Assembly: GCA_035235625.1 (NCBI GenBank) | Contig: CP141142.1 | Coordinates: 36,032,995 to 36,096,994, forward strand | DNA length: 64,000 nucleotides | Source: Saururus chinensis | Taxonomy: Eukaryota; Streptophyta; Magnoliopsida; Piperales; Saururaceae | Reading direction: 5' to 3' | Shown: in pieces, positions 5,346 through 63,076 of the stretch | Layout: each line of letters starts with the position of its first letter | Position numbering within the stretch: position 1 is the first letter of the stretch | Program-made: the position numbers and the translations under genes | Notes under the pieces: generated by a model | Database searches by the model: none | What the model was told of the DNA's origin: nothing | The model's input: only the letters and a program-made list of their open reading frames with translations

Positions 5346-6162
5346 GATCGATCGGCTACACAGGAAATTTGTATGTTGTGTGTATGATGCCTATTTTGAT
5401 GATTCCACTTTGGATTGCCAATTTTATATGAATGTGGAGTGTTTTCAGCTATATTAGGCTACTGGAAATGCATGCTATTAAGTTTATGGAGTTGAGATAT
5501 ATGCTTAGAGATGGTGGAATGACTTATGTTTTGTGGCATAATGTTGGAATCATTATCTTGATATTTTGAATGGTTGTTTCCCTTTGGTTAAGCATATTTT
5601 CAGTAGGACTACAATCATTGTTGGACTGATTTGTCATGATGGATTGTGGTTAGTGGTGTGTGGATGTTGGTGAATGTCATGACTCAATGAATGAAATGAG
5701 TGATGTTATATGTGTTTAGCCTTTGTGGTTGAGTTTTGAATCTAGCTATGATTTCAACGATTCTTCTACTATGATTTCCGCTGGAATTCATGTTTAGATA
5801 GAAATTCACATGTGTAGTGTGGTAGTGAGTTGATTTTCAAGCATGTTGATATGCATTATGTGAAATGCTTATACTAGATACACACACACATGTGGGGTTA
5901 AATGATGATGTTGAAGCTTAATATTGTGATTATGAATGATGCATTAGGGGCTGGTGAGAGCACTTATCATGATTAGGGTTCATGTATGCTTTGCCCACGC
6001 ATGTACCATGCTGCACGCATCATGAAAATGGATTTCCAATTGAGGTTTCATCGTGATTAATCGAATTTGACCGATTAGATGCAATGTGATGGAATTGTGT
6101 GCCGGATTGATCTGTCGTGGATTAATCGCAAGTTGATTGGTCCGAAAGGACATATTTTGTTT

Positions 6163-6560
6163 TGAAGTTCCTGTGTGGAACGATTTAGAGTTCCTGTGTG
6201 GAACGATTTGGAGTTCCTGTGTGGAACGAGTGCACTCCCCGGGTTGAGTCTTGTTTAATGGAATGATGTGGGGACGAGTTGTGTACTTGTCTTGCGGATA
6301 TGTGAGAATATTTTTACGTGTGTCATCTGGACCCTGAGAATCCAGTGTGGTATGCCGTGTGCACCCCGCTACCACGTGTTCTAGGGTTCTCTGTGTGAGA
6401 ACTCGGGCTCTTCCCTCCGCAGGAGATGTCCCTGGGCGAACACCCCTGCTCTAGATTCTCTGTGTGAGAATGGGACATCCTTGGCCAGGATCGTCCAGGG
6501 CAAGCAGTATTAGGGATTGACAACCCCGATCTTTCTTGAATTCTTGTGTAGAATTTTGTA
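6163..6560 (+). repeat. Run of short hairpins sharing a TGTGT loop
   Basis: Six perfect small inverted repeats have different stems but the same loop: GTTCC-TGTGT-GGAAC three times (about 6165-6227), GTTCTC-TGTGT-GAGAAC (about 6386), ATTCTC-TGTGT-GAGAAT (about 6455) and GAATTCT-TGTGT-AGAATT (about 6538). The series recurs in copy B (31045-31390) and copy C (37962-38330). Confidence 0.75.
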
Positions 6561-26782: not shown

Positions 26783-26980
26783 CCTCCACCCTATATTAAT
26801 AGCTATATTTGAAAAAATGATAGTTTTTATTAAAAGGTGAAACCCATATCTAAGAAATAGAAAAATAAGCTTGTTATACGCTTTTTTAAGTACCCATCCA
26901 CTTAAATTTAACAAAACACATCTATTAATATGAAACAAACTTTTTTTCCAAATGGAACTATTAATTTAGGATAGAGAGAG
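26783..26980. mobile_element. Stowaway-like MITE
   Basis: The left end CTCCACCCTATATTAATAG and the right end ACTATTAATTTAGGATAGAGAGAG are imperfect inverted repeats of the CTCCCTCCGTCC family. A TA dinucleotide follows the right end. About 198 bp, non-coding. Confidence 0.5.
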
Positions 26981-30236: not shown

Positions 30237-31482
30237 TACACAGTAAATTGTATGTTATGCATATGATGTCTATTTTGATGATTCTACTTTAGCTTGCCAA
30301 TTTTATATGAATGTGAAGTGTTTTAAGCTATGTTAGGCTACTGGAAATGCATGATATTAAGTTTATGGAGTTGAGATATATGCTTAGAGATGGTGGAATG
30401 ACTTATGTTTTGTGGCATGATGTTAGAATCGTCATCTTGGAATTATGAATGGTTGGTTTCTCATTGTTAAGCATATTGTCAGTAGAACTATAATCCATTA
30501 TTTGACTAATTTGTCATGATAGAACGTGGTTAGTTGGTATGTGAATGTTGGTGAATGTCATGACTGAAGAATGAAATGAATGATCTTATATGTGTTTAAC
30601 CTTTGTGGTTGAGATTTGAATTGGATACGATTTCAACGATTCTTTTCTATGATTTCCGCTGAAATTCATGTTTAGATGGAAATTCATATGTGTAGTATGG
30701 TAGTGAGTCTATTTTCAAGCATATTGGCATGCATTATGTGAAATGCTTCTACTAGTTACACACACACATGTAGGGGTTAAATGATGATGTCGGAGCTTGA
30801 TAGTGTAATTATGAATGATGCATTAGGGGCTGATGAGAGCACTTATCATGGATTAGGATTCATGTATGCTTTGCCACGTATGTACCATGCTGCATGCATC
30901 ATGAAAATGGATTTCCAATTGAGGCTTCATCGTGGTTAATCGAACTTGACCGATTGGATGCAATGTGATGAAATTGTGTGCCAGATTGATCGGTCGTGGA
31001 TTAATCGCAAGTTGATTGGTCCGAAAAGACATATTTTGATTTGAGTTCCTGTATAGAACGAGTGCACTCCCCGGGTTGAGTCTTGTTAAATGGAATGATG
31101 TGGGGACGAGTTGTGTACTTGTCTTGCGGATGGTGAGAATGTTATTACGAGTGTCATCTGGACCCTGAGAATCTAGTGTGGTATGCCATGTGCACCCCGC
31201 TACCACGTGTTCTAGGGTTCTCTGTGTGAGAACTCGGGCTCTTCCCTCCACAGGAGATGTCCCTAGGCGAACACCCCTGCTATAGATTCTCTGTGTGAGA
31301 ATGGGACATCCTTGGCCAGGATCATCCAGGGCGAGCAGCATTAGGGATTGACAACCCCGATCTTTCTTGAATTCTTGTGTAGAATTTTGGACCATGATAC
31401 GCTTTCGTGGCCTTGTCTATGCTCCCGTCTGTGTAACATTAATGTGTGATTACTCCTTGACGGAGGTGGTGATGATGTAATG

Positions 31483-41546: not shown

Positions 41547-42209
41547 ATGTGCCCCCTCCGCGTCGTCCTAATCTTCCTCTCCGCCACCTTCGCCGGCTTC
41601 CTCCTCCTCAAGGGCCTTAACTCCGCTTCCGACGAACTCCAACAACCCACCGACGCCAGCGACAAGTCCCAAGCTTCCCTCGACGAGTCCAGCGCCTCCC
41701 GCTCTTCCAAGGTCTGGGACAGATCTCCATTTTCTTCAAATTATTCTTGAAGTTTGTCTGTGTTGTTTCTTCCCCATTTCCGGGGCTTCTCTTGGCTTAA
41801 ATCTTGGTCCTGCAACTTGTTCTTTGCTTTTTTTAATCTGGGTTCCTTTAGTTTTTCTCATTTTTGGATATGTTTGGCGGGTGATCAATATTAACATGAA
41901 AAGGTTTATCTTTTTTCTGATCTGAAATTCTGATTTTTTTGTCTTATAGTTTTTAGAAATTTTGAATTTTGTTCTCATTTGTAATCTTTTGGAGGTGAAT
42001 GTGGAAACGTAAATAGTATTTCTACCTGTTTTTTGTTTTTTCTCTCGCTTCTTGATATCAATGTGTACTTTTTTCCTTTATCTGATTCACGTTTATTTTT
42101 CTTTCAGGTTTTTGCTGCTATTAGCTTGGGGTTCTGGACTTGTGTGGACATGGCAAGCGGCCGCTACCTGTGGAGGAATTTGTCTGCGCTGAAGCAATCC
42201 ACGGACTGA
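41547..42209 (+). CDS. Small conserved plant protein with N-terminal hydrophobic segment, two exons
   Basis: Exon 1 is 41547-41711, ending TCC AAG before GTCTGG. Exon 2 is 42108-42209 after TTCTTTCAG and ends TGA. The intron is phase 0; the product is 88 aa. It starts MCPLRVVLIFLSATFAGF, a single hydrophobic segment (about residues 4-22) fitting a signal anchor. A polar Ser/Asp-rich middle follows, then a compact C-terminal block with GFWTCVDMASGRYLWRNL. To my memory, plant proteins with this start and this C-terminal block are annotated 'methyltransferase-related' although far too short to be methyltransferases; the function is unknown. Exon 1 is much more GC-rich than the surroundings. The exon junction recreates an unbroken conserved frame, which supports the model strongly. 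Confidence 0.85.
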
Positions 42210-42887
42210 TCTCAAGACAGGTGTTTCTTTTGTCTTCCCTTCCCGATGAATTTGTGCTCTGTGTTGTTGTAGTTGTCAATCGTTTGTACGCTGCTTGTGC
42301 ATCTGGCCTATCTACTGACTACCAAAATTTTCTGTGGAGAACTGATTTGTGTTGTATATCTGCTCAATTTGTGGGTATAAAGGAGAGGCGGAGCCAGTTG
42401 ATGCGTATGAATGTTGTTGAGTATTATCATGTATCTGGAGAAATTTTCAGAATTTGTGCAATTATATTGCAAATATTCCAACGTTTGATTTTCTGTCTGT
42501 ATGTAGTTGATCATAGTCATAGGAGAGGCAATCTTGTGTACATTATATGGTAGTTTTTAGACTCAGTCTCTGTAAGTGATTATCCCGGAAGTTAAACAGA
42601 ACAAATATAGTCTTACACATTGTTCAGCAAAAAAAAAATGAAAAGAAAAGAAATGAACAAAAATGCATATGTGCGGAGGCTAAGAGGTCAGTGAGGATGC
42701 GTCAATGTTTGACGGTATCTATTATCTGTTCAAGTATGGGAGACTAAATTCTTCAAAATTTATGGGATTAAGTTCCGTTATCTGCACTTGGTACTGGATG
42801 TATTTTGCCATAGTGCTTGTAAATATTTTAGAGTAATGCATTACTATGGAAGGTAATGTCCCCTATTCATGGGCACTGGACAACTTT
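42210..42887. other. 3' flank of the small gene
   Basis: Probably includes its 3' UTR. The open frame at 42140-42553 is the other reading of exon 2 plus UTR and is not a gene. Nothing else seen. Confidence 0.4.
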
Positions 42888-43260
42888 GACAGTTACCATT
42901 TACTTAATTACTATCCAATACATTGACGGATATGTTTTAGAGATTCAAGTAATGGGAATATATACAAAAGTCTACCCCAACTCAGAGGGAATACTTTTGG
43001 TTCTGATGATTATCTTGCATATGAATCAGTACAATAATTTAGGCACGGTGAATTTGTGTTGAACCTCAGTTGATAGTTAATATTTACTTAATTAGTAGCT
43101 AATACATTGATGGATACGTTATAAAGATTCAAGTGCACGATTATAGACAACAGTTTACTCATCTGCAACTCAAAGGGAATAATTTTGGTTCTGATGATTA
43201 ACTTATGAATCAGTACAATAATTTGCACAAGGTGAATTCGTGATGAACCTCAGTTGATTT
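42888..43260. repeat. 185-bp tandem duplication
   Basis: Two copies (about 42888-43070 and 43075-43260) share TTTACTTAATTA.TA, ATACATTGA.GGATA.GTT, GGGAATA.TTTTGGTTCTGAT, ATGAATCAGTACAATAATTT and GAACCTCAGTTGAT in the same order. Non-coding. Confidence 0.8.
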
Positions 43261-44550
43261 TATCAGATTTTGCTACCCTAGTTCTCTTGTAGGCTTCCAT
43301 TCTTGATACTGCCTTATTTTCTATTATTGCCTAGCAGTTAATTTGGTGATTGGTCTTGTGTAGACCAGATTGTATGAAAGCAGCTTTAGAAAAGTGCTAT
43401 GCTATGTACTTTTAGGCGTGTGATCTGCTATTACAGAATAGTTCGGTACTTTACTTCAAGTTATTGACAAAATAGCATTTTGGTAAAAAATAAATTTCGT
43501 CTGAGGGATTTATGGTACTGGAAGCTCTGTGCGTTCCTTGTGGTCTTTTAAGGTCAACTGGAGCAGTAAGCTCATTCATGCATTAGATCCATGAAAATTT
43601 GCTCTCTACCCTTTACTTTTTCCACAATTAAGAGTTCCTTGTTACTGGGTAAAAGAATAATTCTTCCTTTTAATTCATTTGCACTGTTGCCTGCGACTAA
43701 TATTCCACTTGATTTAATTTATGAACGAAGGGGTTCAACCACGGGGTCCTCTTACATTTGTAATCAATATATTCCGATACCAGATTTCATTTTGGGTAGC
43801 GTTGACTATGTTGTATTCTACTCATGCATTCATTGTGGAGTTTCTTCATGTTGTTTTCTTTTTGTGAAAATCTCATTTAGGGGTTGCAACAATATTCTCT
43901 TCAATCGTGATTCAATTGCATGTAGCTCATGCTCTCATCATGGTTTCCTCTTAATGTTTTGAAGAGTATGATTGAAGGGGGACTAGCTGTATTTGCAATT
44001 TTGATATTTAGATACCATTGACTCCGTTTGTTTAAAGTAGCAGGTTGAACTTTAGTATGTGCTTTAATTGTACTTTTTTGGCTTGTGCCATTTGAGAGTT
44101 GCACCTTGAATGGTGGGTGTGCGTCAGAAGTTATGCGGATCGCAATTTGAAGGAAAATGTTTTAACTAAAAACTAATGAGGTCTGACATCATCTTACCCT
44201 CATCCTCACCCTCTTCTTCCTTGAGGGGATGACCTGTTAAACACGGGGGAAGGAGGTAGCAGCCACCAGCTCTGCCTGACGAGCTGCTGTTCACTGGTTG
44301 GGGCCGCTCGACCACTTGCCCTTACGTGCAGGGTAGTTTTACCGAAACTAAACACACTATGGCTGTTGTCGGCGAGATTAACCATTGACTGTGAATCTAA
44401 CTGTGAACATGGCGGTTTGTTAACAATCTATGCAGGATTCATCTCGTCTATGAAAGAAATTAGGTTTAGCTTTGGCGATGATTTCATGATAATAACACCA
44501 TCTTTTGTATTGATTCATAACAAGCAATTGGGTGTACTTTGTGGGCAACG
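43261..44550. other. Intergenic, no gene seen
   Basis: Mixed composition. The frame at 43591-43962 shows no recognisable domain. A GC-richer stretch at 44200-44420 has no continuous frame. Confidence 0.4.
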
Positions 44551-44760
44551 ACTGCATTTAGTGGATAAGGTAGGTAGCCCTTAATGAGAAAAGGATATGC
44601 AAATTGAGATTAATTAGTAATTAATCACCTTACGACTGCATTTAGTGGAGAAGGTGGGTAGCCCTTAATGAGAAAAGGTATGCAGATTTAGATTAATTAG
44701 TCATTAATCACCTTTTATCCTCTAAGTGGAGAAGGTGGGTAGCCACTAAAGAGAAGAAAA
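44551..44760. repeat. 84-bp tandem repeat
   Basis: Units have GTGGA.AAGGT.GGTAGCC landmarks at 44561, 44645 and 44726, the first two followed by CCTTAATGAGAAAAGG and TTAGATTAATTAG-type sequence. About 2.5 copies, abutting the Stowaway-type end at 44777. Confidence 0.8.
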
Positions 44761-44851
44761 GATGGGTAACTTTATACTCCCTCCGTCCTATTTTAATAGC
44801 TCCAATAGGATAAAAACACTCTTTTATATTAATTACTCCATATCGATGAAT

Positions 44852-45106
44852 TTAATCTATAAGACGTCTATGATGATTCTCACATAAATACTTAAAACCT
44901 ATTGGATTCGTCCTTCTCGTGGATTGCCTCCCAGTCACTGTCTTTTCTTTAGCGTCCAAAATATTCCTCAGCTCCATTGTACAACTCCTCCAACGAGCAA
45001 GAAGTTTGTTCAAACCTTTCCATACCTTGAGGAGCTCATCGCCGCCGTCCTCTTCTCCGGCTCCTGCACCCGTCATCTCCTTATCAGAAACCATCCTATC
45101 TTCCAC
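44852..45106 (-). pseudogene. Unrecognised coding-like fragment beside the GATA relic
   Basis: This minus-strand open stretch has coding-like composition ('DELLKVWKGLNKLLARWRS'). I do not recognise a family. Its position and GC content suggest it belongs to the captured DNA; it could be a third source gene or flanking non-coding sequence. Confidence 0.25.
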
Positions 45107-45289
45107 TTTCTCCTCCCCCCATCCAGCAGCCGGGGCCTCCTAGTTGGCCGGTAGCTGAATCATCTTCCCGAACAGCTTAATCATCGTGTCCCGGTTCTCC
45201 AATATTCCTCACCGATGAACAACCACACCTCCAACAAGACATGGTGATCTAAAAAATTTGAAATCCAAATCTCTCGACCTTCACTCCCC

Positions 45290-45690
45290 TCCCAAGTATC
45301 TGATACGCGAGAATTCCAGGCTAGGACAATCAGCAGCTCCCTCTGGCGCCGCAACTCCATCACCTTCTGGTGCAAGTTCGAGTGATGCATCAGCACGAAC
45401 ATGGGGCTCGCCGCTGGCCTGTACTCCGGCATCAGCCTCCCAGGCTTGTACCAAACCCCGCAAGAGTTGCATAGCGACTTGGGCCCCATCGGCCCCATCC
45501 ACCACTGCGCAATGCATGCACTTCCTGGCTTCTACCTCCCCTACCGCCGAAGATGAAGATGATGGAGCAGCCAAGCCCGAGGCGGAGCCTCCTTCCTTTC
45601 TCCTCGGTTTGATCATCTCCGCCAGGACCGTGCTCAACGAAGCCGGCGAGTGGAGAGGGGCCCAGCTATTTCCCGAGGCCCCCACTGCTA
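45290..45690 (-). pseudogene. GATA transcription factor fragment, frameshifted
   Basis: On the minus strand one frame ends in RKCMHC, the first C-X2-C pair of a plant GATA finger, and a neighbouring frame continues with [14 protein letters not shown], the second C-X2-C pair. After it come [16 protein letters not shown] and KVMELRRQ, the conserved tail of plant class I GATA factors. A short deletion in the zinc loop shifts the frame between the two pairs, so no intact finger can be made. GATA factors bind (A/T)GATA(A/G) sites and respond to light and nitrogen; this copy is only a relic. A Lys/Arg patch (KPRRKEG) upstream fits the usual basic region. Confidence 0.8.
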
Positions 45691-45744
45691 TGGAGCACTT
45701 GCTCCTGGCCCGGCCAGGGACGGACTAGTCCCGGTGGACGCTCG

Positions 45745-46330
45745 GGTTCTTGATCACCCTGCACTCGACGATGGTGTCGGAATACACGGAGGAGTCGGAG
45801 AAGGAACTTGGACAGCCATCTGGGTCTCCATTGAAATTTTGCACAAGAACAACCTCCCGCTGGTAATTGACTTGAGCCCAGTCGGGCCCGAATCCGGGAA
45901 CCCGCCCAACCAACAACTTGTGATATTGGTGACGGTCTCTATCACACAGACATGGTCATCCCCGACACTGATGTTGGATAGTGCCATCGAGCCGGAGTAC
46001 ACGTTGCATAAACTAGTATCCTAGCAGAGGAGGACGGAGCTGCCGCCAGTAGCTAGAGCAAGGCCATAGAGGAAGTCCCTGACGCTAGAGATGGACAAGA
46101 AGGAGATGTTGGGTAAGAGAGGGAGGGAGAGGGCCGTGCCACCATGCCAAATTAGGCAGAAGATGGATTGGGACGCCTTAGCCTGTGGAAACTCCGTATT
46201 CCGCCTTGGAGGAGACAATGGCAAGAGTGGAGGCAAAGCCTAGTGCAGAGGCTGGGGACACCACGGCTGAGATTGGGAGGAGCACGGCTAGGGTGGATGT
46301 AGCGGCTCTGGTGGTGGAGTCATTGAACGA
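45745..46330 (-). pseudogene. CCR/CRINKLY4-type receptor kinase ectodomain fragment
   Basis: In order on the minus strand: a hydrophobic leader piece ending SALGFASTLAIVSS (46290-46210), a frameshift, then NISFLSISSVRDFLYGLA (46130-46060), LSNISVGDDHVCVI (45980-45940), CWLGGFPDSGP and LKSITSGRLFLCKIS (about 45900-45840). This is the spacing of the repeated 'SISxG..FxCGL' and 'ISVG..HVCAI' units in the extracellular repeats of plant CCR receptor-like kinases. No transmembrane or kinase part is present, and frameshifts and stops break it. Confidence 0.6.
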
Positions 46331-46508
46331 GTCTCACAGGTCTAGTCGCGGATCGGTCTTCATTGGGGGCAACGTTCTCAACAACACAGAGCAATGAGCC
46401 AAAATTAGTGTTTTAGTACTGTTAGATGCGCAAAAGAGAGACATAATTACTATCTTAATTAAAATGATAAAATTTAGATATAAAACTATTAATATAGGAC
46501 AGAGGGAG

Positions 46509-46885
46509 TATTAATTAGGTAAGTGGGAATGCCATATGCTAACGAAGTAAAAGCCTAAAATTTTGTAGGCATTTTGACACATTAAAATTTTGTGCCAATA
46601 TTCTAACGCCTTCTTGCACCAATGGTTTTTTTCCTACAAACTTAGCCAAAAAATGAGCCCAGCCAAAATAGTGCGCTGAGATAAGGCTTCGAGCTCTTGA
46701 AATGGGTAGGGTCCGCTCTGGTTCAGCTCCACAAAATCTCAATTGACAAATTTCTAGGTTTCAATTATTTTCGTTTTCTCATTAAGAAGTTTCGAAATTA
46801 TGAGTATATAATAAAGAAAGTAGAATCATGAAATGTGCCCCCCTACCGACAGTTATACGGAAAAATATCCACATAATTCTTTAAG
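46509..46885. other. Intergenic, no gene seen
   Basis: AT-rich, with no feature recognised. Confidence 0.4.
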
Positions 46886-49010
46886 TAGGGTTGGTGACCT
46901 GACCTGAGCTGACAATTTAAATATAAAAAACTTGACGCTACTTAATATTTGTTCTTTAAAAAATTTGACCTCACTCAAAAAAATAAATTCTACCCTTTCA
47001 ACCCAATATTAGGTTAAATTTTATTTTGGGTTTTGTCCCCGCATTAGAATTTTGAGTTTTTTCTATATTACTTGACTTGATATATTAGTATTTTATATTT
47101 TCTGAATTTTGATACTTATCTCATATGACCTGGTTTAGGATAAATATAAGTCAAACCTAAACCTACACTCAAACTCTTATCTCATTATTAATAAAAATTA
47201 CCAACAATAGCACAAATTTGTATGAGCAAAATCAAAACACAACATATAGAAAATAAATTACCCACTTAAAGATGATCGATAGAAAGTAAAAAAAATTTCT
47301 TTCCTAATCTTGTGTTCCAGATAACAAACCAAAACAGAATCACCTCCCGATTTCAATCTAAAAACTAGTTGAAAAGGGGGAATCAAAGGAAGCTACTTTA
47401 GTGCTTGTTAAATTTGCAACAAATTGAATGTTCTAGCAATCTAAAAAATTGGGTTGCGTTTAGAACAGATTGAAGGCCTCCAGAGACTTACGCCAAATAG
47501 AGATTGAATGCTGCAAAAAGAAATATTGTTGGGAGTACAACGAATCCGAATGAATTCGGGTAGAGTACATCAACTTTGCATGACTCGCAATACTTTCGAG
47601 AATGTGAGAATGAGAGGATAGCTCCCATTAAACGGACCAAAAATCTCACGCTCCGCATGACACGTATCCAACACTTAAATCCATATCGCATATACGATAA
47701 CATAATATTCGTCATAGCGTATTATCGATAACATGATATGTCACCATAGCGTATTATCGATAATAAGATATGCCATCATAACGTATTATCAATAACACGA
47801 TATGCAACCATAACGTATTATTGATAACACGATATGCCAACAATGTATGCTATTGATAATACAATATATTACGATATCCTTTATATCACATATACGATAA
47901 TACAATATTCACCAAAAGCTTGTTATCGATAACACAATATTTGTAATAGTGTATTATTAGTAACATGAGATTCACAATAGCGTGTTATTGACAATACGAT
48001 ATGTTGGCATAGCGTGTTATCGGTTACACGATATGCCAACAAGACGTGTTATTTATTTTTTTCTAGATCGCATATAGTATAATATGATATTCGTCATAGC
48101 ATATTATCAATAACACAATATTCATCATAACGTGTTATCGATAACACGATATGCTAACAAGATATGTTATTTATTTTTTTCTATATTGCATATACAATAA
48201 TACGATATTCGCTATAGCGTATTATCGATAACACGATATGCAACCATAACATGTTATTGATAACACTATATTCGCCAGTATTTGTTATTTATATAATTTT
48301 TTATTAAGTCAAGGATAAAAACTTCTGAGATCATGTATATGCTTATATAAGATGTTCTACATAGTAAAACTTGCATATGAAAAATCATATTAGAGTCCCT
48401 CTTTATACAATAGGGTAGGAGGTTATCATAGCTATTCTACAATGTCCTTCTTTGGCATTTATATTCTTCTTTATTCTTATATAGCTATATTCTCCCTAGA
48501 TAGTCCATCAAGATTTATTTTTTGAGTTGTAGTATCATCTTAATTTCCTTTTGTAATGATAAATAATTTATGGTTAGAAATTTTTAGACGAAAATTAGAG
48601 AATAACGATGGCTGATGAAATCAGAGAAGCCGACAATTGCTAAATAGAAATCAAAATTTATTGCTAATAAAAACCGCCAGGCAAAAATCACAAATCGTCT
48701 CTAAGCTCCTATCTCCTCTTTGTTTATGCTTTGTCACAGCTAATTTATATGATTTTTAACCCAAACCTTATTAAAAAGGTATTTTAGTCTTTTTTTTTAA
48801 ATATCGTGTTAACCTAGGTTTTATATAATATTTAAAAAAAATTAAAAAATATAAAATATTTATATCTTAAGCCAAGTAATATAAAAAAACTCTAAAATTT
48901 TATCTCAACGTTGGGTCAGTTCTTAATTTTCAACATCTATCTCATATACAGTAAGGTTTAGGAAATCAAGAAGACTATCTCAAGTTGGGTGAGGCACTGT
49001 AATACCAACT
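46886..49010. mobile_element. Inverted-repeat structure around a TTATCGATAA array
   Basis: The segment 47046-47101 matches the reverse complement of 48849-48902 at about 80 % (for example TATATTACTTGACTTGATAT against TATATTACTTGGCTTAAGAT). The arms lie on both sides of the tandem array at 47700-48280. The outer limits (AGGGTTGGTGACC at 46887 and the GTTGGGTGAGGC region near 48980) are guesses. No transposase is seen. It may be a foldback-type element or an array that grew inside an older element. Confidence 0.45.
47700..48280. repeat. TTATCGATAA-containing tandem array, 39-40 bp unit
   Basis: Roughly a dozen units centre on the palindrome TTATCGATAA or its one-base variants, followed by CACGATATGCCAACCATA-type spacer. 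A longer period of about 118 bp (three units) is shown by the shared GTTATTTATTTTTTTCTA insertion at about 48048 and 48166. Repeated ATCGAT gives many near-identical self-complementary sites. Confidence 0.85.
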
Positions 49011-57509: not shown

Positions 57510-58859
57510 TTAGGAAGCTAACAGCGGCTGCTGTTGCTGTTGCTGCTGCCGCTCACCTTGCCAAGCCCAAACAATATCCTTCAGTGCTGGTCTGATCTCT
57601 TGTGTCAAGAGATTCTGATACTCCAGAGTGTCTCCATTGGACTTCTTCACCTCAATTAGATGTAATGATGGAGTGACCTCAAATATCTCGGCATCTATTG
57701 ACAGAACTCCTTTTCTACCTTCCTTTGTTCCCTCTAATTTCATTACTCCATCTTTCTTTGCAACTTTCAGCTTCAGTCGCTTTGCAATATCCTCCAGTTT
57801 CTTTATTATGCTTGAGGCAGGCTGCCTCGAGGTGAATCTTGCCTCTCTCTTTTGCTCACCATCCTCAAACAGACCAGACAGGTCAAATCCTACAGAAAGA
57901 GAGATTATATCGAAGGCATTCAAGTTAGTTGGTTTAACTAACTCTTGCTTCCCCTCTGGAATACTATTATCATAACTACTGAAAACTGCATCAGTATCCA
58001 CAGGAGTCAAATCCTTGGTGTCAATTTCACCTTTGTTTGGTTTAGCATCAAACCCCTTCCTGAACCAAGGGTTTTCCATAATCTTAGCTATGGAGATCCT
58101 AGTATTAGGGTTTGGATCCAAAATCTTGGACAACAGCCTGCGGACATCCAAGGGAAACCAGTGGGGGCATTTGAAGTCCGCTTTGCCAATTTTCCTATAC
58201 ATCTCCATGAGGTTTGAATCGTGGAAAGGTAAGTAGCCAGCCAAGAGGACAAACAAAATGACCCCAGAAGACCAAATATCTGCCTTGGCCCCATCATACC
58301 CCTTTCTGTTAATAACCTCAGGGGCAACATACGCAGGGGTCCCACATGTCGTGTGAAGCAACCCATCTTGCCTCTTAGATTCAGCTAGGGCACTCAACCC
58401 AAAATCTGAAACCTTCAGATTCCCGTTTTCATCTAATAGCAAATTTTCAGGTTTCAGATCTCTGTGATAAACACCTCTACTATGGCAGAAGTCAATAGCA
58501 CTAATAAGTTGTTGGAAATACTTCCTAGCCACATCCTCCTTCAGCTTTCCCTTGGCCACCTTGTTAAACAGCTCACCACCTTTCACGTATTCCATCACAA
58601 AATAAATCTTTGCTCTGGTAGCCATGACTTCATAAAGCTGAACAACATGAGGGTGTTGCACCAGTCTCATCACAGAGATCTCTCGCTTAATCTGATCCAT
58701 CATCCCCACCTTCAGCACTTTCTCTTTATCAATTACCTTGATGGCAACGCTCTGCCCAGTTTTAAGATTCCTTGCATAGTAAACCTTAGCGAACGTGCCC
58801 TGTCCTAATAGTCTTCCCAACTCATATTTTTGCATCAGAATGTTCCCTTTATTATCCAT
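57510..58859 (-). CDS. CBL-interacting protein kinase (CIPK/SnRK3), intronless type
   Basis: A single uninterrupted frame of 449 aa. The frame is open to an ATG at 58883, but the start at 58859 ([15 protein letters not shown]) matches the usual CIPK N-terminus. Kinase domain 12-266: glycine loop GQGTFAKV (19-26), catalytic Lys41, HRD (132-134), DFG (152-154), APE (179-181). The NAF motif lies at 314-316 within [10 protein letters not shown] and binds CBL calcium sensors, relieving autoinhibition; a PPI-type segment (about 340-368) follows. CIPKs phosphorylate ion transporters and other targets in calcium, salt, K+ and nitrate signalling. The sequence ends VWAWQGE plus a run of seven Gln. Closest in memory to the CIPK2/CIPK10/CIPK20 group, which is intronless; the exact orthologue is not assigned. 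One oddity: DIWSSG where most CIPKs have DIWSCG. Confidence 0.93.
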
Positions 58860-60500
58860 TCCAAACTTCATAAGATTAATCAAACACGCAATATGTGGAT
58901 ACTAACCCCCAATTTTATTGTATCACACTCTACTTACAGTCTGGGGGCTTCTAAAGCTATAAGGCTCAACCGTCTTCACAAAGGTCGTGATTTAAGATGG
59001 CTGGTTTTCTACAAGTTGTTGGCCCATCGTGGATTGAAGTAGAGAGCGTATAGAAGAATTGATGTCCAATCTCATCAAGGATAAACAAGGACAGCTCTAT
59101 CTGAGCATTAATCTCAGAGATATCAGAGAAGTGTGTCATCGCGGTCACACACATCTTTCTGCATTCCCTGAGGCTGTGCTTCCAAAATATACCACACTGA
59201 AAAATATTACCAAACACTCGAAATCAGTAACAAGCCAGTGCCAATAGAAAAAACTAAAATATCCCAAAAAGATAATATGTATTATCTAAAAAATGCTAAA
59301 TTTACAATCAGTGATATACAGACAAGGAATTGAATCCAAAAAATAAAAAAACATCAAATCACCAAATACTGGAAGAACAAAAAACCAATTGTGCAAGCAT
59401 TAAAACATACCTCAAATTCTTGTCAACTAGTTTGCTGGTTAAACAAACAAAAAAGGCCCTTAATTGACACAATTCTATAGCCAGTAGTATAAAACTAGTT
59501 GATATTTTTGGATGCTGCAAGTATCCAGCCTCACAGACAAGCTAATTTTACTTCAAAATAAATTTGCGTTCACAATCAAATCTAATCTAATAGATGAAAA
59601 TCCGTAGAAAATGGCGGCCCAGTGAACACAACAACAAGAACACAAAAGCACAAAAGCTTTTATTCCTCCATTAGCAATGATTACAATTCAATCAGTAACA
59701 TTAAATGAACAAGCCAAAACATGCCCAAATTTTCAATCCGAACTAAATCTAGTTGAGCTATAGCTTTCCTCTTTGGTGGTAGAACACGTATTTTTCCAAC
59801 CTCAGGGGAAAGAAGACAACAAATTTGGTGGACATCTCAAACAAGCAAATAATGAATGAGCTCTTACAGCAACAAGGGGGAGAAACATGCGCAATAAGAA
59901 GTATATGCACATAAATCAACATGGATAACTCTAAAATAAAAACACTGGAAATCGCCAACTGTTCAAGTAAAAGGAAAAAACATCTGGGCATCTGAAAATT
60001 GAAAAACAACTTAAACAAAGCAGAAATTTAAGAAATTAACAAACAACAACCATAATAAAACGCACAAAAACGACAATATCTCCAAAATTTTGAGGTGCAT
60101 CAACAAAATTAAGGCATCCCATAAAACGAACAGCTCATTCCACCAGAAAAAGATACATTCAAACAAACAAAACCCACAATTCCCATCAAACCCAAATCGC
60201 GTTCGATTCAGAAGAACAACACCCACAAACCCAAAAACCCAATTTCAAGACAAAATCAATTCTTTTCCTTTTAAAAAAAAAAAAAAACGTAACCCACCCC
60301 GGCGAATTAAAGCTACAATCTTTACCCTCAGCAGACAACACGAACCAGGAATCGAATATGCCCAAAAAAGCGCAGAAATCCGACAAGCACGAAGAATCGA
60401 GCTGAGCAAACAACTGGGTAGATTCGGATCGAATTACCTGAGACGGATCGCCGGTGAAGAAGAGGTCGGAACTGACGCCAGACAAAGAGAAAGAGAGATG
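58860..60500 (-). promoter_or_regulatory. CIPK 5' leader with probable leader intron, and promoter
   Basis: Just inside 60500 (minus strand) a leader-like sequence ends TCTCAG/GTAATTC, a good splice donor at 60437. An acceptor ATTTTTCAG/TGTGG lies at 59197. This suggests a 1.2-kb leader intron, common in CIPK genes. A TATA-like run (AATAAAAGG, minus strand) lies at about 60535. Several upstream ATGs would remain in the leader downstream of 59196, so another acceptor nearer the start is possible. Confidence 0.4.
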
Positions 60501-62974: not shown

Positions 62975-63076
62975 CTCCATTTGTCCTAAATTAATAGTTT
63001 TATTTAATTTTTTTAAAATGAATTAATTTTAAATCATTTTGAAAAATCAAATGAAGCTATTAATGTTAGGAGAGAG
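62975..63076. mobile_element. Short Stowaway-like MITE
   Basis: The left end CTCCATTTGTCCTAAATTAATAG and the right end CTATTAATGTTAGGAGAGAG are inverted repeats, flanked on both sides by TA. 102 bp, non-coding. Confidence 0.6.

Follow-up and report, generated by a model that had tools for sequence, protein, structure and literature searches.

The window, a 64,000-nucleotide stretch (C3:36032995-36096994) of a 516-Mb assembly in 11 contigs, contains an element of 1,732 bp with Stowaway/mariner ends at positions 44777-46508. The element starts with CTCCCTCCGTCC at 44777 and runs up to GGACAGAGGGAG at 46508, with TA outside each end, and the first 24 bases of its left and right ends are identical at 21 positions. 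A preliminary description had noted inverted ends each flanked by TA, an observation that holds to the base. When the 44 left-type and 41 right-type TA-flanked starts in the window were paired at spacings of 70 to 3,500 bp, only two end pairs passed, and this element was the best of them. No further TA-flanked end was found inside it at up to two mismatches in 12 bases or up to four in 14. Its interior is mostly higher in G+C than the surroundings. Pieces of three genes follow one another between the ends, ordered on the minus strand as CCR receptor kinase (46400-45833), GATA factor (45819-45335) and, last, the beginning of a CDF/Dof gene (45351-45016). The features are as follows.

44775..44776, no strand: left TA target-site duplication, from the sequence and, for the C2:8.35 Mb copy, from empty sites with one TA
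44777..46508, minus (reading strand of the gene pieces): the whole element, very probably a Pack-Mariner, 1,732 bp, recognized from both ends with TA and from other copies
44777..44799, plus: left terminal inverted repeat of the CTCCCTCCGTCC type, from end searches and pairing
44777..44888, no strand: left end region of ~112 bp, common to many loci of other content, from genome matches to the end only
44889..45015, no strand: stretch between the left end region and the CDF piece, which the C9 copy and the older C2 copies have as well, from genome matches
45016..45351, minus: CDF (cycling Dof) piece with 5' leader, start codon and exon 1 with the IKLFGK motif, 88% identical to a gene at C1:13.30 Mb
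45335..45351, minus: GATA/CDF junction on microhomology, 13 of 14 bases common to both source genes
45335..45819, minus: GATA piece, inside one exon and broken by frameshift, 84% identical to an intact GATA exon at C8:34.68 Mb
45820..45832, minus: short CCR remnant beside a ~39-column deletion common to five copies, seen when the C9 copy and the older C2 copies are aligned with it
45833..46400, minus: CCR receptor-kinase piece, covering ~80 bases of 5' leader plus the first part of the ectodomain, with frameshifts and stops, 81% identical to a gene at C3:38.25 Mb
46417..46508, no strand: right end region of ~92 bp, common to many loci of other content, from genome matches
46486..46508, minus: right terminal inverted repeat, from end searches and pairing
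46509..46510, no strand: right TA target-site duplication, from the sequence

Three degenerate ~83-bp units lie directly to the left of the element (44548-44759). Elsewhere in the window, short Stowaway-like elements with related ends occur at 26783-26980 and 62975-63076, and Stowaway-like ends are abundant in the 61.9-63.5 kb stretch. The window also holds a CIPK-type kinase as a single open frame (57510-58901, minus strand; Pkinase and NAF domains) and two open frames that look alike by eye and both carry EGRARVLTQRTLEHVVAGCT (5980-6450 and 30853-31416, both minus strand), the first of which has no match in Pfam.

Taken alone, the broken gene pieces give weak scores. Two Pfam runs were made, one on ten fragment frames and one on eight sequences (joined or X-marked frames plus other genes of the window). 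Among the fragments of the element, only GATA scored in either run: the broken frame matched PF00320 with an E value of 6e-5 and 23 bits, below the curated cut-off of 26.8, and two frames joined gave 21.9 bits. The best solved-structure match of this piece is a plant GATA factor (E = 1e-4), and a protein search of viral contigs returned one weak GATA-like match. The CCR fragment itself had no Pfam match and no meaningful match among solved structures. The names CCR and GATA subfamily (subfamily I-like) are our presumptive labels for these pieces.

Intact parent genes for CCR and GATA, which the preliminary description had proposed to look for, are present in the genome. The CCR piece aligns at 81% over 593 bases to C3:38.25 Mb, where a stop-to-stop frame of 829 codons encodes RCC1_2 and kinase domains. 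The intact GATA exon on C8 scores 58 bits. Both of the broken genes read at first sight, a CCR-type ectodomain and a GATA finger, are thus borne out by these genomic matches. That description had further suggested a mariner-type element that fused two unrelated genes. Capture and fusion stand, but the number of genes is three, as the CDF piece at 45016-45351 had been missed. Its source on C1 has a first exon reading MSENRDPAIKLFGKTIQL and a downstream exon with a Dof domain (114 bits). The IKLFG motif of this piece is the one described for CDF1 in the part of PMC9252474 available to us, and it appears as PAIKLFGKTIPL in rose Dof proteins in the accessible text of PMC7969895. Ends of ~112 and ~92 bp carry CCR, GATA and CDF pieces whose best sources, among the genome matches listed, lie on three chromosomes (C3, C8 and C1), each place matching one piece only.

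The CCR piece includes ~80 bases ahead of the start codon, and the CDF piece extends ~10 bases beyond the likely splice donor, which points to copying from DNA. Processed, RNA-derived gene copies were rejected because these ~10 bases were kept at the sole testable exon edge. The longest ATG frames in six copies measure 97-167 amino acids. Frameshifts and stops break both the GATA and the CCR readings, so a protein product is unlikely; judged from the sequence, the gene pieces most likely encode no protein. It is possible that the element acts as a source of small RNAs regulating the source genes, or as an exon donor.

The composite is present in several copies, as the preliminary description had suggested checking. 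A DNA search of the genome with the element gave 48 match rows, with the best 40 of 459 candidates scored. Among the matches listed, three further copies have both ends and TA on both sides: C8:35.73 Mb (87% identity), C2:57.16 Mb (86%) and C2:8.35 Mb (86-91%, in pieces). Two-ended copies, the window included, measure 1,716-1,753 bp, and all four have the TA duplication. In the C2:8.35 Mb copy, positions 106-182 are missing and a duplicated stretch near 1206-1277 has diverged. At C4:34.65 Mb (89%), the right end with TA is present and the left end is missing; at C9:34.11 Mb, the left end with TA is present and the right end has decayed. Two more diverged copies, at C2:15.7 Mb and C2:31.2 Mb, are interrupted by gaps of ~4.5-5.8 kb. 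The stretch at 44889-45015 has 10 matches, eight of which are copies of the element and two of which (41-44 bases) lie elsewhere. C10:6.85 Mb and C9:16.85 Mb match from the left end to ~44949. A further place, C5:7.10 Mb (L021, 2001-2530), holds only the right end and CCR 306-738, followed by unrelated DNA; it represents either truncation of a fuller copy or an earlier stage at which CCR was the sole cargo.

We found that the composite of three gene pieces occurs as a unit at TA sites in unrelated flanks, and that one copy has empty sites. The flanks of six copies, 12 in all and each up to 1 kb long, had no cross-match at an E value of 1e-5. The C2:8.35 Mb copy sits in a repeat, and its joined flanks gave matches running straight across the join in 38 of 40 rows (the best 40 of 2,596 candidates), the other two being its own flanks. 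Two of the empty-site rows were aligned by base, and both read TTTTGTATTTTATCATT with one TA, against TTTTGTATTTTA-element-TATCATT at the filled site. For an SKP1-bearing element with similar ends (C9:25.30 Mb), 39 of 44 rows span the joined flanks, as row-level matches without base alignment. For the window copy no empty site was found, its joined flanks matching only themselves. The local 83-bp repeat might continue on the far side of the window copy and so supply its empty site, but this was rejected as too weak, since seven of 5,475 TA sites, itself included, score as high.

Pack-Mariners combine mariner/Stowaway terminal inverted repeats, a TA target-site duplication, more than one copy, and a match of more than 50 bp (E < 1e-5) to non-transposase host coding sequence. 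The window element has such ends, a TA on either side and further copies, and it matches three genes at 81-88% over 342-593 aligned bases, partly in 5' leader and in genomic genes rather than a CDS set. With 1,732 bp and three gene pieces, it is not a Stowaway MITE in the narrow sense, that is, a short element without gene cargo. We are confident in placing it among the Pack-TYPE elements, as a multicopy, gene-carrying and non-autonomous member of mariner/Stowaway type.

Breakpoints, expressed in source-gene coordinates, reveal the order in which the pieces were acquired. Seven places bear GATA, and five of them (the window, C8, C4, C2:57 and C2:8 copies) have in common deletions of ~39 columns in CCR and 11 columns in GATA; these are the younger copies. 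Their CCR piece starts from 309 (window, C4 and C2:8), 317 (C2:57) or 374 (C8, which has an extra separate 21-base CCR piece from 317) and always ends at 900. Their GATA piece runs from 588 (613 in C2:57) to 1098 or 1100, and their CDF piece from 501 (505 in C8) to 841-842. In the two older copies (C2:15.7 and C2:31.2), CCR continues to 951 and is followed directly by GATA 587, which ends at 1087 or 1089; CDF then runs from 500 or 513 to 841-842. The C9 copy passes directly from CCR 307-975 to CDF 412-836, and GATA is absent. It keeps 24 bases of CCR (952-975) and ~88 bases of CDF (412-499) that are missing from all seven GATA-bearing places, so a loss of GATA cannot yield the C9 arrangement. 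CCR and CDF were thus joined in the element before GATA entered, and GATA later replaced their junction. The outer breakpoints agree closely, with a CCR start at 306-317 in eight of nine places (C8 through its small separate piece; C2:15.7 starts at 395) and a CDF end at 836-842 in all eight places having CDF.

The pieces are joined within 0-14 bases. The GATA/CDF join falls on CGCCAGA(A/G)GGAGCT, in which 13 of 14 bases are common to both source genes; among 4,488,036 pairs of 14-base words from the GATA and CDF source stretches, only two reach an identity of at least 13 of 14, and the join is one of them. The CCR/GATA join has microhomology of at most ~1 base. K80 distances are 0.07-0.15 among the younger copies, 0.18-0.27 from these to C9 and 0.10-0.18 to the sources. 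The younger group is supported at 0.97 in the CCR tree and 0.98 in the CDF tree, with other nodes weak; one copy and the source gene form a group in the GATA tree (0.81).

The placement of GATA over the former CCR/CDF junction, together with the GATA/CDF microhomology, favors repair of a break with template switching over the fusion of neighboring insertions. We consider it reasonably likely that the cargo was taken up stepwise during repair of breaks inside a resident element, which in its larger form then spread to new sites. A break would arise inside the resident element, and a trimmed end would pair by short homology with an unlinked gene. The paired end would be extended by a few hundred bases before switching back, and the enlarged element would subsequently be copied elsewhere. 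A relative with matching ends would have supplied the transposase for its movement.

The main competitor is the published Pack-TYPE model, in which neighboring Stowaway insertions are mobilized together with the DNA between them and their inner ends are later lost. PMC8903248 puts this forward for Pack-TYPE elements, a rice Pack-Mariner cluster among them. Stowaway-like ends do lie less than 2 kb from the GATA and CDF source pieces (L018 at 390; L020 at 719-787 and 308-321), as insertion of neighbors predicts, but such ends are common here. The near absence of microhomology at the CCR/GATA join also counts against break repair, and fusion may explain how the first piece arrived between the ends. 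However, the three best sources are on three chromosomes, the pieces abut without a recognizable inner end at the joins, and GATA has partly replaced a CCR/CDF junction that was already there, one of its two borders showing microhomology. We regard fusion of neighbors as an unlikely account of the composite.

Several gene pieces in one orientation are a Helitron-like cargo, and Helitrons and Pack-MULEs are the usual multigene capturers, so an element of either kind might be nested in, or mistaken for, a Stowaway. One CTAG-T follows a small hairpin on the plus strand at 45728, but it falls within the GATA match, which runs through it. The element has a TA duplication rather than the Helitron pattern of A/T insertion without duplication, a 3' hairpin and a CTRR end, its only CTAG hairpin being in the GATA piece. 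For Pack-MULEs, which have 8-11-base target duplications and inverted ends around the cargo, a search of 42001-49000 for exact direct repeats of that length with inverted ends (11/16) gave no candidates, against 0-2 in ten shuffles. With ends and an empty-site TA of mariner type as well, a Helitron or Pack-MULE origin is very improbable.

Stowaway ends are frequent here, several of them in the window, and two separate complete or truncated MITEs could by chance surround pseudogene fragments. This reading, which the preliminary description had named as a way in which its own might fail, meets no inner ends at the thresholds used, and the outer structure recurs in four copies whose flanks are unrelated. 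The empty sites for the whole C2:8.35 Mb copy speak decisively against it, and we give it hardly any credence. Unrelated flanks and single-TA empty sites likewise tell against a segmental duplication of a locus with neighboring genes, a reading of negligible probability that the preliminary description had also named and that found no support in the analyses made, as the best sources lie apart on C3, C8 and C1 (CCR and GATA were not found as neighbors elsewhere) and the pieces are joined within so few bases.

The ends of this Pack-Mariner recur widely in the host genome. A 34-base right-end pattern had 467 sites at up to three mismatches and a 34-base left-end pattern had 443, with none for either reversed-pattern control. 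From 100 listed sites per end, we obtained 27 inward pairs of 790-2,564 bp, and no same-strand or outward pairs within 3 kb; the genome probably holds several hundred end pairs. Among the loci examined, 11 end pairs passed the filter, or nine after removal of two repeats of one place. Only L023 and L054 have interior sequence in common, and the outer pair of L054 may span two elements. L023 carries an SKP1-like piece (PF01466, 1.5e-17), the one Pfam match among six cargo frames of other elements; related places lie on C4, C7, C1 and C3, and an SKP1-like gene at C2:1.07 Mb. L042 consists of two abutting parts, 4-546 matching C1:51.49 Mb and 547 onward matching C5:6.39 Mb, and its positions 549-690 match an S-domain-type receptor-kinase frame on C1. 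In L082, whose cargo we take to be VPS8-like, 36-336 (two pieces) matches C5:26.60 Mb and 333-1023 matches C3:3.37 Mb, the latter part also being matched in two pieces by C5:1.71 Mb. All four elements searched against the genome, the window element included, hold sequence matched elsewhere, and three of the four from more than one place; outside the window genes, a match may be donor or copy. L034 has four left-end copies in a row at 217-bp spacing, without TA (545-1297; C6:25308344-25309096), resembling a tandem repeat that has incorporated a Stowaway end.

No transposase could be linked to these ends. The DDE_3 profile had no matches in the genome. DUF7769, presumably a domain of plant mariner transposases, had eight, one of which (C11:21958352-21958510, minus strand) lies in an open 476-amino acid frame and is a candidate mariner transposase.

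Gene capture of this kind has precedents. The preliminary description held that capture by Stowaway/mariner MITEs is not usual, a view now out of date, since Pack-Mariners are known from rice and maize (Gisby and Catoni 2022, PMC8903248). In the available part of that study, they are mostly of low copy number, 19% of those in rice hold several loci, and mobilization of neighboring insertions is favored. They resemble the window element in Stowaway/mariner ends, TA duplication and captured coding DNA. Our element differs in genome and cargo, in a capture order visible from a GATA-less copy, and in joins without the neighboring-insertion structure proposed there. Stowaway MITEs have the same CTCCCTCCGTCC-type terminal repeats, TA target and lack of a transposase, but they measure a few hundred bases, and the window element has 1.7 kb with gene pieces inside. 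Pack-MULEs are likewise non-autonomous elements with terminal inverted repeats around chimeric GC-rich gene pieces; they have MULE ends and longer target duplications, in contrast to the mariner-type ends and TA seen here. Animal Pack-TIRs, explained in the accessible text of PMC8277862 by a gap-filling/FoSTeST model, are alike in having fillers with microhomology breakpoints within a resident TIR element, whereas ours is of plant mariner type and an earlier stage of it survives. As far as these sources go, the joins fit neighbor mobilization poorly and the gap-filling/template-switching of animal Pack-TIRs better.

Among the papers listed by our literature search, none describes a banana Stowaway family with gene cargo, nor is there such a description in the available part of PMC12550479. 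Pack-Mariners, including multilocus ones, have already been published for rice (PMC8903248, in the part available); the surviving earlier stage is the unusual and valuable part of the present case. How DNA transposons take up unlinked gene pieces is still an open question, and a 2026 review allows that unlinked fragments may be captured by a mechanism yet to be discovered (PMC13317346). Since a single genome provides source genes, junctions, an earlier stage and an empty site, the order and kind of each join can be read. The repair/template-switching model is directly testable in a plant mariner family through other cargo-bearing elements with similar ends. The window element shows how jumping elements can stitch new gene combinations from unrelated genes. 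On balance, we favor the view that C9 preserves a fossil stage of cargo uptake, with plant mariner-type elements acquiring unlinked genes one at a time by microhomology-guided break repair, and that several hundred end pairs may form a platform for gene shuffling in the host genome.
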